A stretch of DNA of 38,073 nt from a virus. The DNA is taken from positions 1-38,073 of the IMG/VR virus record IMGVR_UViG_3300023184_000005; one strand, given 5' to 3'. This document shows, piece by piece, positions 1,757 to 25,325 of the stretch. The notes under the pieces were generated by a model. It made no database searches, was not told where the DNA came from, and was given only the letters and a program-made list of their open reading frames with translations. Numbering within the stretch: the stretch's first letter is position 1; every line of letters begins with the position of its first letter. The translations under genes and the position numbers were made by a program.

Positions 1757-3106
1757 TCAGGTCGATGTGCCAGTTGAGCGATAACGCACCCCAGCATTAG
1801 GATCACGAACCGATGTGGCAAGACGCTTTTCGCCATAGAACGTGATGTAGCCCGGCAGGGTCTGGTCATAACGGCGCATAACCATGTTCAAGCGGTCAAT
1901 GATTGTGTGAAATCTTGAGAAATCAGCAAAATACATTGGGTACAAGCTGTTTGTACCAGCAGAGCCTGTGGTGGCTTGTGACGGGTTGTCCAAGTACTTG
2001 TTCATCACAACATCAAAGCCCAACAGTTGACCGATGATGCCATCAGGATTCAGTGATTCAACTGAATTGAAGATTGGGCGACCATTGGTGTCTTGCAGAC
2101 CACGAATTGCTTGAGCCAAAATTGGATTGACCATGAACTTAGCGTTCGGTGTCCAATATTGCTGTGGCAATGCGTAGATGAGGTTGATAACGTCTTTGTA
2201 CTGGATGGCATTTGCGCCAACAGTGTTCACGTTTGATGTCAACTGGTCATAGGTTGCTAAGCTGTGCAAGCCTGTGGTTGAACCTGTACCAGATGTGCCA
2301 AATGCGGCTGTTGAAGTTGTACCGCCTGTGTAGGTAGCGTTAGAACCAGCGTACTGGTCTAAACCTCGCAAACCGTTCAGGCCACCATAGGGGTTAGTGC
2401 CAGACTGTGCGGCTTGATCATTGTTTTGAACCATTGACAAGGCTTCGCTTTGTGCAAACTCAACCAACATATCATCAACCACGTTTGCTTCCAAACCATC
2501 AATGTCATCCAGAGCCGCAGTACGGATCGGGAATTGCACGTTCAAGTCTTGCAACACCAGTTGCCAAATTGAAGTGTCTTCAGTGGTAGTCGCGCCGTTG
2601 TTTTGGATCGTATAGCCCCAAGCGGCCCCGGCGTTGCCCGTTTTCACCCGGAACTGATAAGACGAACCATCAGTCGCCACAGTGCGAGAAATGCCACGCA
2701 TTGGGTTAGCCAAACGCAGAGCAACAAACGTAGGGTCATAGCCTGTACGACCACCTTGGTTGTTACCGCCAGCAGTCAATGCTGAGGCTTCTTGCAAATA
2801 TGCGTCATACTGACTTTCATCAGCAAACATCTTCAGTTCTTTTTCAACATTGCGACCGCCTTTGTAGTAAGACGCAATTTGTTCTTTAACAGCACGGTTC
2901 ACATCATCACGAACAGTTTTAGCTGGTGCGCGGATAATTGCTGGTGCTTGAACGGTTGCCAGTTTTGCTTCAAAGGCAGAGAATTTCTCAGCCATTTCAG
3001 CTTGCACGGCGGCAATAGCTTCAGGGATTTTTGCTTCAACTGCTTGAACGGCTTCGGCTTGTTTAGCTTCGATAGCGTCCAGTTTTTCGAGAATTACTTG
3101 AGACAT
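1757..3106 (-). CDS. Major capsid protein, HK97 type, with N-terminal scaffold domain
   Basis: The product has 449 residues. Residues 1-60 are rich in Ala, Glu and Lys (EKLDAIEAKQAEAVQAVEAK and following) and would form a coiled coil, as in the HK97 delta/scaffold domain that the prohead protease removes. The remainder carries HK97-fold capsid signatures: a GGNNQGGRTGYD loop, ALRLANPMRG, SYQFRVKTG and the C-terminal TLPGYITFYGEKRLATSVRDPNAG. It follows the protease gene directly, in the standard HK97 order portal-protease-capsid. This is the better candidate for the bulk shell protein, because it alone keeps the scaffold region. Confidence 0.93.
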   Translation of the reverse strand: MSQVILEKLDAIEAKQAEAVQAVEAKIPEAIAAVQAEMAEKFSAFEAKLATVQAPAIIRAPAKTVRDDVNRAVKEQIASYYKGGRNVEKELKMFADESQYDAYLQEASALTAGGNNQGGRTGYDPTFVALRLANPMRGISRTVATDGSSYQFRVKTGNAGAAWGYTIQNNGATTTEDTSIWQLVLQDLNVQFPIRTAALDDIDGLEANVVDDMLVEFAQSEALSMVQNNDQAAQSGTNPYGGLNGLRGLDQYAGSNATYTGGTTSTAAFGTSGTGSTTGLHSLATYDQLTSNVNTVGANAIQYKDVINLIYALPQQYWTPNAKFMVNPILAQAIRGLQDTNGRPIFNSVESLNPDGIIGQLLGFDVVMNKYLDNPSQATTGSAGTNSLYPMYFADFSRFHTIIDRLNMVMRRYDQTLPGYITFYGEKRLATSVRDPNAGVRYRSTGTST

Positions 3107-11896: not shown

Positions 11897-12223
11897 TCAT
11901 TCCTCTTGCTTTGGAATCGGCAAATCAGGAACAACCAAGTTTCTGTCCAGCAATTCTAACCATGTATTGCGAAAAGCGTTCCACCACATTTGCTGTTTTT
12001 CTTCTTTTGTCAGATTATTTCCAGCGTCCAGCGTGTGATGGCAACTGGAACACAAAGCAACCGTGAATTCGTCCGATGCCTTGATTGCCTTGCCTTTGCC
12101 ATGTATCGCCATGTTGCTGTGCGCCGCTTGGGTGTACCCCTCAACTCCACAATGCTGGCATGGCAGGGATGCCACGTTCTTCAGGTGCTTTTTACTGCGC
12201 CAATATTGAAATTTTGGATACAT
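11897..12223 (-). CDS. DUF1364-like HNH-type nuclease
   Basis: The product has 108 residues. It carries LPCQHCGVEGYTQAAHSNMA with a CxxC pair and a conserved AAHSN, then GKGKAIKASDEFTVALCSSCHH with a second CxxCH, ending TKEEKQQMWWNAFRNTWLEL. This order is typical of the phage nuclease family DUF1364, a small zinc HNH enzyme found among nin-region genes. It starts 32 bases inside the end of the transporter gene. Role in recombination or junction processing is inferred from the neighbourhood (NinB, VRR-NUC). Confidence 0.85.
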   Translation of the reverse strand: MYPKFQYWRSKKHLKNVASLPCQHCGVEGYTQAAHSNMAIHGKGKAIKASDEFTVALCSSCHHTLDAGNNLTKEEKQQMWWNAFRNTWLELLDRNLVVPDLPIPKQEE

Positions 12224-12686
12224 ATTTTTTTAAAATAAAAGACCACATCATTCCACCAAATGTTTTTGCAAAAAATTGTAAAGCCACAATTTCAGGCATT
12301 AACACACCAAAAGCGATTGTAGGAAATATTATTGAATCGACCAATGCGCCAGCAGTATTTGCAATATTGGCACGTTTTAACCATTCGCCTTTAATTTTAT
12401 TAAACACCATCCAATCAACCAATGATGCCAAAGTAAATGACACAGCAGAAGCAATGGCAATTATTTGCATGGTGTCATTCAAGGCATAAGAAATTGCACC
12501 AGTACCAAATATCATTGCCCCCATTTGCCATTTGTTAAGTTGCAAATTTAACCAATTTCTCAAAGCCAAATCTAAACCAATAAAAACAAATGCGTTAATT
12601 GGCGTAATTGCTGGCCCAAATAATAAAACCAAATAATTTGCCAAAACAATCGCTGAAGCATAAATTAAAACTGCAAAAATTAACAT
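12192..12686 (-). CDS. yhhQ: VUT/YhhQ-family queuosine precursor transporter
   Basis: I start at the ATG at 12686, preceded by AGGAGA; the product then has 164 residues with about five or six membrane helices. FVFIGLDLALRNWLN, SFTLASLVDWMVF and ANTAGALVDSIIFPTIAFG are signatures of the VUT/YhhQ (DUF165) family, inner-membrane importers of preQ0/preQ1. It follows the DpdA-like gene with a 4-base gap, so the pair looks co-translated: the importer supplies the base that the transglycosylase installs. The phage has no visible preQ0 synthesis genes, so uptake or the host pathway must be the source. Confidence 0.88.
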   Translation of the reverse strand: MLIFAVLIYASAIVLANYLVLLFGPAITPINAFVFIGLDLALRNWLNLQLNKWQMGAMIFGTGAISYALNDTMQIIAIASAVSFTLASLVDWMVFNKIKGEWLKRANIANTAGALVDSIIFPTIAFGVLMPEIVALQFFAKTFGGMMWSFILKKYVSKISILAQ

Positions 12687-13360
12687 AAAGTCTCCTGTAA
12701 TGGGTTGCTTTTCCAAAAAGTTGGCGGGTTAGTTGAATCAATACGTTTTGCCATACATCCAGCACATTCTAAATTTCCAGAATGATTAACAGCCACATTG
12801 GTGGAATCAGCACTTGCTAAAGGCCAAGGCCCGGCAGATTGCCCAAGCATTCTCATACCATGCACCCAAGGAATTTGTCGCCCATAGGCTTGAACAAGGG
12901 CATTAAACGCTTCATCCATGCGCCCACACCATTTGGATGTGCCAATTTGCCAATATTCGCCAGCAGACCCAAAGCAAACCCGTCCCCATTGGTCACAAAG
13001 TTCAATCAAGTAGCTGATTGGCAACCCCAAATGCCACACAGGAATGCCAAATTCTTTGCGAAAAGGCCATGTTTTTGTCATTTCTTTTTGTTGGTCAACA
13101 GTTCCATCAATCACATCAGGTACTACCGCCCAATGTGGATGAGCCAATAAAGGCTCAACCCATTGATAAAATCCATGCAAATCAAATTCCAATCCTCTTG
13201 TTTTTGCACTAAATGCACCATTGTCCAACATCAAAGATTGACCAATTTTTAGACATCTTTGCAAATCATCTGGTCTGGCATAGGAAATACAAAAGTTTTT
13301 TCCCGCCATTGTTTGAATTGCTTTAATGGGACTGATTGGTGTCCCGTGATAATGAATCAT
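12680..13360 (-). CDS. dpdA: DpdA-like DNA 7-deazaguanine transglycosylase
   Basis: The product has 226 residues and resembles tRNA-guanine transglycosylase-type TIM barrels as found in phage DpdA. LMLDNGAFSA (residues 43-52) matches the substrate-binding DSGxF region of TGT. VVPDVIDG (79-86), WHLGLP, GSAGEYWQ (131-138), VHGMRMLG (166-173) and ASADSTNVA (182-190) follow, with D185 the likely nucleophile. CAGCMAKRID (199-208) keeps only a CxxC pair of the usual zinc site. It is much shorter than TGT (about 375). It would swap guanine in DNA for preQ0, preQ1 or a derivative. The upstream gene overlaps by 4 bases. Confidence 0.82.
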   Translation of the reverse strand: MIHYHGTPISPIKAIQTMAGKNFCISYARPDDLQRCLKIGQSLMLDNGAFSAKTRGLEFDLHGFYQWVEPLLAHPHWAVVPDVIDGTVDQQKEMTKTWPFRKEFGIPVWHLGLPISYLIELCDQWGRVCFGSAGEYWQIGTSKWCGRMDEAFNALVQAYGRQIPWVHGMRMLGQSAGPWPLASADSTNVAVNHSGNLECAGCMAKRIDSTNPPTFWKSNPLQETLC

Positions 13361-13815
13361 GTGATGTGAACGACTTTGTGGTTGTTCGACCGAATGTAAT
13401 TGATGGTTTTTTCGATCATCCGCTCATATTCCGACCGACTGATGCTGGTGCGCTGTAGGTCATGTAGGGCATAAAGTTCTTTGATGTACCGGATTCCTGT
13501 GCCTGTTAGTCCCATCTTGCGGGTTTTTTCGTACCTGTGGGCGGCGGCTTCCATTTCCTTTTGAACAACTTGACAGACTTCCAGCACTTCAATGCCAATG
13601 CCGTTTGTACTCATTGTTTCAGCAATGTTCAGCATATCCACCAAGGCTCTCCAATCGGCGGTAGTGGCATTACCCTTAACCATCGACTCAATTGCGCTTA
13701 ATTCGCCCATTCTGAGCCTGTCAAGCTTATCTTCGGCGGTGATCGCCGCGCCCGTGATTGCAAATTCAATTGGATTAACCTTGTTCCAGACTTTTCGCTT
13801 GCACATTTTTCTCAT
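13357..13815 (-). CDS. Unknown helical protein between NinB and DpdA
   Basis: This 152-residue protein starts at an ATGA overlap with NinB and ends in an ATGA overlap with the DpdA-like gene. The N-terminus is basic (MRKMCKRKVWNKVNPIE); the rest is helical, with TTADWRALVDMLNIAETM and a Lys/Arg-rich C-terminus. Similar proteins are common in Burkholderiales phages as hypotheticals. The tight coupling on both sides makes a role beside DpdA or NinB possible, but nothing in the sequence shows it. Confidence 0.75.
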   Translation of the reverse strand: MRKMCKRKVWNKVNPIEFAITGAAITAEDKLDRLRMGELSAIESMVKGNATTADWRALVDMLNIAETMSTNGIGIEVLEVCQVVQKEMEAAAHRYEKTRKMGLTGTGIRYIKELYALHDLQRTSISRSEYERMIEKTINYIRSNNHKVVHIT

Positions 13816-14213: not shown

Positions 14214-15032
14214 TTAATCCCCACAAAAACAAGAAATTGATTCTTCATTTGGGTCAAACATATCTCGTTGTTCTGCCGCAAATTTCATCATAGAAGCATA
14301 GGATGGACGGTCAGAACGAAATAATGCACCACTTGGTTTAGAAGCTAATGATGTGCTTTCCATTTTTGCCCACCAGATTGCACGTTCAGGTTTTTCTGCA
14401 ATTAAAGATAAAACTTGTGCGCCACCTTTGAGAAAACAAAGATCACAATTTCCATGCATAGTGACACCATTCATGTTTGGCAATTCAAGATCAAATGATT
14501 GATTGCGCCAAAACTCACCAATGGTTTCTTTGGTCACGCCAGCAGTAACCAATGGAATTCTTGATTTGTCAGAAATTTTGGCGGCGCGGCGTTGTTCATC
14601 AGCCCTCATGCCAACCCAATCCATGTTTTCATTGTGATCCCATCCCAAAGATTTCAAATATTTGTGGATTGTGCGTATTTTTAATTCTGCTGTGCAAAAT
14701 CTTGTTACTGGATTTGGCAAATAATTGCGTTTTTTAATCAATGCTTCAAATGGTTCACCATTTCTGCTGGGTGTTTCAAATGTCACACGTTCAAAAGCCG
14801 GGTCTACATCACGAAACTCAACCCAATGAATTTCAACATTCCAGTTATTAGAACAAGCTTGAACAAATCGAAGTGTGGCTTCATCTTCTTTTCCAGTATT
14901 AGCAAAACAAACTATTGCTTCTTCTGGTAATTTTCCACCGCCAGCTTCAATTACTTTAAATAACATAAATGCGCTTGTACGACCACCTGAAAAACTGATT
15001 ACAGTTGGTTCTTTTATTTCATATGGATTCAT
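14214..15032 (-). CDS. PAPS-reductase-like PP-loop enzyme
   Basis: The product has 272 residues. The N-terminal PP-loop SGGRTS sits at residues 15-20, as in phosphoadenosine phosphosulfate reductase and DndC-type enzymes. CFANTGKEDEATLRFV, RFCTAELKIRTIHKYL, GMRADEQRRAAK and MHGNCDLCFLKGG follow, with a C-terminal SCFCGD. The Cys pairs could bind a cluster. Phage versions of this family are usually named PAPS reductase, but activity is not established; sulfur transfer or DNA/nucleotide modification are alternatives. It sits between VRR-NUC and NinB with overlaps of 4 and 0 bases. Confidence 0.85.
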   Translation of the reverse strand: MNPYEIKEPTVISFSGGRTSAFMLFKVIEAGGGKLPEEAIVCFANTGKEDEATLRFVQACSNNWNVEIHWVEFRDVDPAFERVTFETPSRNGEPFEALIKKRNYLPNPVTRFCTAELKIRTIHKYLKSLGWDHNENMDWVGMRADEQRRAAKISDKSRIPLVTAGVTKETIGEFWRNQSFDLELPNMNGVTMHGNCDLCFLKGGAQVLSLIAEKPERAIWWAKMESTSLASKPSGALFRSDRPSYASMMKFAAEQRDMFDPNEESISCFCGD

Positions 15033-24218: not shown

Positions 24219-25325
24219 TTACCTAAAAAATTTGCCTACCATCCAACACACAACAGAAAATCGTTCCCCGTCTTCCACATCTTCCACGCCGTGCATTATG
24301 AAAGATGGAAACACCAGCACAGTGCCTTTGCTCTGCGGTGGATAGTAACGATTCTGCCCGTCCTGCAAGAAGAACTTGCCACCCTTGAAATTATCGTTCA
24401 GGAACGCTAATACCGTCAATTTACGGCATTCATCGCCGTGTTGTAGAAATGTGTCCACATGAGCCTGATAACGACCGCCAGCAGGGTATGCAAGGAATTC
24501 AGCTTGGTTGGCATGGGTGACATCAAAGTTCCACATCTGCTTGTTTGCCCATAGACCAGCCGCCGCAAGCCGACCGCCAATGTCTTTGTATGTGGGCAAC
24601 ATCACACGGGTCACATTGCGAATAGATGTATCAATTTGACCATTGCCTATGTGCGGTGGTTCTTTTTCCAATCGGTCTTGTGTGTACAACTTAACAAGCG
24701 AATCACAGGCTTCAGGTGTCAGGATGTCGTTGTAAATCCAATGCCGCATTTCTGGTGACGGCAAGTTAAGTGACGGTCGCTTGTCAAACTTCCATTCAGC
24801 GTGTGGCCCATCAGCATCAACGTAATGCAAAAACACCTGTGCTTGCCATTTACCCTCAGTGTAAACCTCACGCCAATGGTGTTTGTCCATGCCCCTGTAA
24901 AGCACAGCATCGCCTACAACCATGTCAATCTTGCTTGGGTTAGCCTTACCCTCATCGCCCATGTAGATAGGCCACACATCGCCCTCAAAGCCAAGGGTCA
25001 AAGTTGCGCTTATTTCGCAGGATGGTCGGTCAGTGTGGATGGTTAAATCTTCGCCGGGCGCATATAGGCGAGCATAGGAATATGTCGGATAAAGACGTTT
25101 ACCAGACGCACGTTCAAAGTGCGGCAACAAGTCAACCAGCAATTTGTCAAATGCCATTGCCCCATGAACAGCTTCTGACTTTGGGCATTGACTATCTTGG
25201 ACAGTTCGCTTTTCAGAAACCAATCGCTTCAATTCGGCGGTTAACTCAGCGCAAGATTCTTTGGCAAGAAATTCTTTTAAATGGACATATTTGTCAACAA
25301 CGAATTGGCTGAGTTGGTCGCACAT
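24219..25325 (-). CDS. Tandem 2-oxoglutarate/Fe(II) oxygenase (P4H-type), two domains
   Basis: The product has 368 residues and holds two complete prolyl-4-hydroxylase-like domains. The first has YSYARLYAPGEDLTIHTDRP with H97 and D99, and KHHW with H149/H150. The second has AEFLAYPAGGRYQAHVDTF with H289 and D291, then FPSFIMHGVEDVEDGERFSV with H345 and R355. Both iron triads appear intact. Such enzymes hydroxylate proteins or nucleobases; substrate unknown. It sits after the tail-fibre genes, so modification of a structural protein is one option. Confidence 0.9.
   Translation of the reverse strand: MCDQLSQFVVDKYVHLKEFLAKESCAELTAELKRLVSEKRTVQDSQCPKSEAVHGAMAFDKLLVDLLPHFERASGKRLYPTYSYARLYAPGEDLTIHTDRPSCEISATLTLGFEGDVWPIYMGDEGKANPSKIDMVVGDAVLYRGMDKHHWREVYTEGKWQAQVFLHYVDADGPHAEWKFDKRPSLNLPSPEMRHWIYNDILTPEACDSLVKLYTQDRLEKEPPHIGNGQIDTSIRNVTRVMLPTYKDIGGRLAAAGLWANKQMWNFDVTHANQAEFLAYPAGGRYQAHVDTFLQHGDECRKLTVLAFLNDNFKGGKFFLQDGQNRYYPPQSKGTVLVFPSFIMHGVEDVEDGERFSVVCWMVGKFFR

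Follow-up and report, generated by a model that had tools for sequence, protein, structure and literature searches.

How does a phage that seems equipped to place a 7-deazaguanine base in DNA obtain the precursor when it has no genes for making it, and what does its enzyme modify? The question is raised by a viral record 38,073 bases long (the window, by which we mean this whole stretch of DNA; the record may be incomplete), whose phage genes include those for head, portal, terminase, tape-measure, endolysin and lambda-like recombination functions. Two of its adjacent ORFs (665-1693 and 1757-3106, minus strand) each hit families of major head proteins (phrog_10), which may reflect a capsid gene duplication, and 24219-25325 (minus strand) encodes a protein whose C-terminal portion is a 2OG-Fe(II) oxygenase domain (Pfam, E 3e-17) and whose N-terminal region is labelled ferrochelatase in PHROGs. 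From 13815 down to 12192 on the minus strand lie three overlapping ORFs, for a 152-aa protein, a 226-aa protein and a membrane protein (Table 1), which the original prediction read as a salvage system made up of a DpdA-like enzyme, a precursor importer and a third, coupled component. All three ORFs are present where it had placed them; the start of dpdA overlaps the 152-aa ORF by 4 nt, and the importer ORF overlaps the 3' end of dpdA by 7 nt.

Table 1. Positions of the features discussed, in the window and (last row) in related loci
Feature	Position	Strand	Description and basis
Short DpdA-like base-exchange enzyme (TGT fold)	12680..13360	-	226 aa, ATG start; phrog_887, AF2 model, conservation
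VUT/YhhQ (QPTR)-family membrane importer	12192..12686	-	164 aa, ATG start; PF02592, phrog_4899
Shine-Dalgarno-like AGGAG for the importer, within the dpdA 3' end	12692..12696	-	read from the sequence
152-aa unknown protein (phrog_20828), transcriptional neighbour	13357..13815	-	judged outside the module
phrog_37496 loci	L123:5645-5944, L129:5627-5932, L151, L174, L187-L209, L087:4678-4917		

Against PHROGs, residues 1-192 of the 226-aa product match phrog_887, 'queuine tRNA-ribosyltransferase' (E 6e-49). Pfam and NCBIfam gave no match to it, phmmer and profile searches of the PDB sequences returned no TGT, and comparing the DpdA profile with an alignment of TGTs by hhalign gave no significant score. 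An AlphaFold (AF2) model was built from 60 diverse relatives (pLDDT 93.1, pTM 0.90); Foldseek alone placed it among generic TIM barrels (E>0.006), with TGT absent from the best 50 listed. When Foldseek's top 1000 chains were realigned structurally and then ranked by Z, the best 50 PDB entries listed were all (50/50) of the TGT family, Cap10 included, at Z 13.6-14.8: Cap10 scored 14.8, archaeosine TGT 14.1 and Zymomonas TGT about 14, and the best entries aligned over about 200 residues with an rmsd of about 3. The modelled protein has a TIM-barrel fold of the TGT type, which places it in the TGT/DpdA superfamily, as had been proposed; a shared fold does not by itself reveal the substrate.

Invariant among the 60 diverse relatives are H5, D46, D82, P107, H110, G131, H167, R170, P180, D185 and S186. 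The aspartates D46, D82 and D185 were mapped to D102, D156 and D280 of Zymomonas TGT by the order of motifs rather than by superposing residues, and on that order we take D185 to be the nucleophile and D46 and D82 to be the counterparts of D102 and D156. A chance ORF is excluded because dN/dS is low (median 0.096 in 22 comparisons with unsaturated synonymous sites) and more than 570 relatives are found in IMG/VR; its substitution pattern marks dpdA as a genuine gene kept by purifying selection. Its product is 36.5% identical to the DpdA of Pantoea phage MED16 over 94% (E 2e-35), a similarity that assigns it to the short phage DpdA family (DpdA/TGT_1, of the DpdA-only phages) to which MED16 belongs. 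The enzyme had been described as unusually short. It is short beside canonical TGT (375 aa in E. coli) but ordinary for its family: among 316 full-length phage relatives, nearly all have 224-281 aa, and the DpdAs of MED16 and phage 7-11 have 261 and 234 aa. The C-terminal zinc site of tRNA-acting TGT (CxCxxC...H) is absent, with CxxC alone in the window DpdA; that motif had been read as a remnant of the site, but it occurs in 17 of the 60 diverse relatives, all from the window clade, and therefore does not represent a shared zinc remnant. At one related locus (L262:4007-5386) a 460-aa ORF contains a short DpdA, possibly as a fusion.

The gene that follows encodes a polytopic membrane protein of the VUT/YhhQ family (QPTR, COG1738, PF02592). 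It matches Pfam Vut_1 with E 1.3e-9 (39.1 bits against a gathering threshold of 27.2) and phrog_4899, shares 29% identity with the putative preQ0 transporter that phage CAjan encodes (E 6e-6), and is modelled by AF2 as long helices only (pLDDT 90). Its scores lie far below the NCBIfam equivalog cut-offs (20.7 against 50.95 bits for TIGR00697, 22.1 against 252 for NF008406); VUT specificity is unreadable from sequence, and the phage protein is a putative transporter of preQ0 or preQ1. A fold search gave no more than a weak likeness to ECF S-components (E 0.35 and above), and PADLOC has no family for either dpdA or vut. The transporter ORF stands as predicted, with a different start: translation most likely begins at ATG 12686, which lies behind the AGGAG motif, rather than at TTG 12716.

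The pairing of dpdA with the importer gene, as seen in gene neighbourhoods, is the strongest finding of the analysis. The coupling that had been predicted appears in the window as the 7-nt overlap, and vut lies directly 3' of dpdA in 108 of 123 window-clade IMG/VR loci (by scan, 78/80 in the first and 30/43 in further loci); of the 15 loci without vut, 2 have no downstream DNA. Many freshwater phages related to this one share the pair. A reciprocal search with the importer alone brought in 78 new loci, every one (78/78) with an adjoining dpdA, many of which fall in another dpdA clade, with 246-aa products that share about 37% identity with the window DpdA. Of 186 related loci, 160 show an overlap of 4-13 nt between the two genes, and 149 have a Shine-Dalgarno-like motif ahead of vut.

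Adjacency of this kind might reflect merely shared descent, with dpdA and vut as independent cargo of one phage lineage. The window-clade loci do come from related phages, outside the clade dpdA often occurs alone (75 of 80 MED16-like loci have no vut), and in phage mEp021 a VUT-family gene (L217:2459-2971) stands without dpdA beside adenine and cytosine DNA methyltransferase genes. Against this, the lineages of the two genes reassort while the adjacency is kept: vut reaches 65% identity where the dpdAs have only 36%, and conversely falls to 46% where the dpdAs are 93% identical, so that, on these identities, importers are exchanged between phages and still adjoin a dpdA. The pair also recurs in phages of Pectobacterium (PEAT2), Pseudanabaena (Pam5), Rhizobium (X2_30 and N3_2), Acinetobacter (AB3P2) and enterobacteria, in both gene orders, the annotated isolate phages having orders other than the window's, and elsewhere QueD and QueE genes hold a neighbouring position. 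Coliphages such as LHE71 and Lg3 likewise carry the pair. We disfavour independent cargo and would give it very little credence.

The association does not extend to the third gene. Of 80 related loci, just 3 encode a close homologue of the 152-aa protein that had been proposed as a member of the module, and in two of these the gene lies beyond the 3' end of the importer gene instead of ahead of dpdA; a search for the protein in phage records gave no match. On these neighbourhoods we reject it as a third component.

The original reading's statement that queCDE and folE are lacking holds under profile scans of the 38-kb record: nothing was found at E<=1 for QueC, PTPS/QueD, radical SAM (QueE), GTP cyclohydrolase I (FolE) or QueF, and the precursor must therefore come from the host or by import. 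Two genes upstream of the neighbour of dpdA (14214-15032, minus strand) is a PAPS-reductase-like ATP pyrophosphatase (phrog_424), of the PP-loop superfamily like QueC, which matches SspD in PADLOC (E 3e-17) and DndC weakly and is found at a minority of dpdA loci. Rfam found just a tRNA, and no preQ1 riboswitch lies upstream of the pair.

Some relatives of the window's dpdA are also tightly coupled to synthesis genes. In eight Pam5-like loci a QueD-like gene directly precedes dpdA, four of them also have a QueE-like radical SAM gene, and vut is present in none; on the two loci examined, Pfam (PTPS, Radical_SAM) supports these QueD-like and QueE-like genes. At L254:3064-4001, L242:3088-4007 and L088:3705-4001, the short dpdA is overlapped or adjoined by QueE-like genes and by QueD-like ones of miniature size (98-118 aa), again with no vut. 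These gene arrangements, a small sample and not a phylogenetically independent one, point toward the same metabolite by another route. In several phage clades a protein of about 80 aa, phrog_37496, is encoded beside the short dpdA, either between dpdA and vut or replacing vut, with conserved motifs CP, VE, FHE/IAD and HHG(V). By eye, CP...VE...FHE suggested a miniature QueF, a candidate we rejected on finding that its QueF HMM scores lie within the range of shuffled sequences; it matched neither QueF in Pfam nor any PDB entry.

What a host might supply can be approached through a betaproteobacterial MAG. The sole match in the genome collection, the MAG contig RFYV01000083, is the same phage: all of its 9,719 bases agree with the window (100% identity), no bacterial flank adjoins them, and the contig therefore shows co-binning only, so that the MAG was set aside as a host assignment. 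Among genomes of the MAG's order, our candidate host order, TGT was present in 31/31, QueF in 59/60 and QueC in nearly all sampled, and Vut_1 in 21/60, one of these being the MAG itself, with a weak match that scores like the phage gene. As judged from these gene contents, a host of such an order would make preQ0 and often would not import it.

Taken together, we think it probable, with some reservation, that the locus is a two-gene cassette for precursor salvage and base exchange, with the phage's own DNA as the likely target. The VUT/YhhQ-type importer would increase the pool of preQ0 (or preQ1) in the infected cell, and the short TGT-fold DpdA would then swap guanine for that 7-deazaguanine at selected sites in DNA, most probably that of the phage itself; D185 would act as nucleophile and D46 and D82 would serve acid/base chemistry and recognition. 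The modified sites may thereby be hidden from host nucleases.

The measured levels in related phages bear on this choice of target. MED16, with dpdA alone, has 0.13% of G as dADG by LC-MS/MS, and its DNA is cut by enzymes sensitive to such marks (PMC8306585); the DpdA-only Salmonella phage 7-11 has dADG at 0.02% of G, and CAjan has dPreQ0 at about 32% of G (PMC6884629). By analogy with the tested short-DpdA phages, such trace levels (0.02-0.13% of G) would fit a DNA target weakly. They, and the cutting of MED16 DNA, would agree with a TGT-fold enzyme that is fed by the importer and acts mainly on something other than bulk phage DNA: tRNA, a protein, or a few regulatory or packaging sites in DNA. 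The top structural match is to Cap10 complexed with a deazaguanylated protein (the Cap10/Cap9 deazaguanine system acts on a protein; PMC11996544), its Z of 14.8 being in effect tied with the 14.1 of TGT. On the other side, dADG in MED16 and 7-11 is DNA-linked, the window scan found no Cap9 (QueC-family) partner, and the sole phage tRNA is Met-CAT and not a GUN-anticodon substrate of TGT, which led us to drop the tRNA target it had suggested. We regard a target other than bulk DNA as rather unlikely. A related idea, that short DpdAs of this clade make up an enzyme class of their own whose main task is not bulk DNA hypermodification, acting on few special sites or on another molecule, with the importer kept because the host pool is limiting, seems to us similarly doubtful.

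A further possibility is that the importer and the TGT-like enzyme increase the queuosine of host tRNA during infection. VUT/YhhQ does feed queuosine in bacteria (PMC5372724, PMC11130926), and Hutinet et al. proposed an effect on host translation for some phages with synthesis genes (PMC6884629). The candidate host order, however, already has TGT, QueF and QueC, the window DpdA is without the C-terminal zinc site of tRNA-acting TGT, and E. coli tgt is not complemented by the DpdA of phage 9g. We consider this explanation improbable, and return to the two-gene cassette acting on phage DNA.

If that reading is true, the importer accounts for the acquisition of preQ0 and the pair constitutes a minimal two-gene system. 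A specific supply of precursor would then be known for the DpdA phages that lack synthesis genes, which are the largest group and the one understood least. It also raises the question of why short DpdAs give only trace modification, and whether bulk DNA is truly their target. Published precedents exist for phages with DpdA alone, for preQ0 transporters in phages and for YhhQ in the dpd islands of bacteria (PMC6884629, PMC8306585, PMC8310023, PMC11888242); a literature search of incomplete coverage found no description of a dedicated dpdA-importer cassette, leaving priority uncertain. With the enzyme family, the fold and phage preQ0 transporters known, the cassette would be modest news for specialists.

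Several known systems share parts of this arrangement. Cap10 of type IV CBASS has the TGT fold and is the best structural match to the window DpdA, but it binds a deazaguanylated protein with Cap9 as partner, whereas the window encodes no such partner and identity is 11%. About 9% of bacterial dpd islands include YhhQ (PMC11888242); these likewise combine DpdA with a preQ0 importer, and differ in carrying dpdB/dpdC and often restriction genes, none of which was seen in the window. The full-pathway phages CAjan (Seuratvirus) and EC151 also have DpdA and a VUT-family putative preQ0 transporter in one cluster, together with their own FolE, QueD, QueE and QueC and a longer DpdA (306 aa in CAjan). 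Closest are the DpdA-only phages (the third group of Hutinet et al. 2019; the DpdA/TGT_1 cluster of MED16), whose DpdAs are homologous and similarly short (234-261 aa) and which likewise have no preQ0 synthesis genes; the window clade is set apart by a translationally coupled importer, there being none beside the dpdA of MED16 or 7-11. In the 2019 survey YhhQ was uncorrelated with any phage group (Hutinet et al., PMC6884629), whereas inside the window clade the correlation with the importer is nearly complete.
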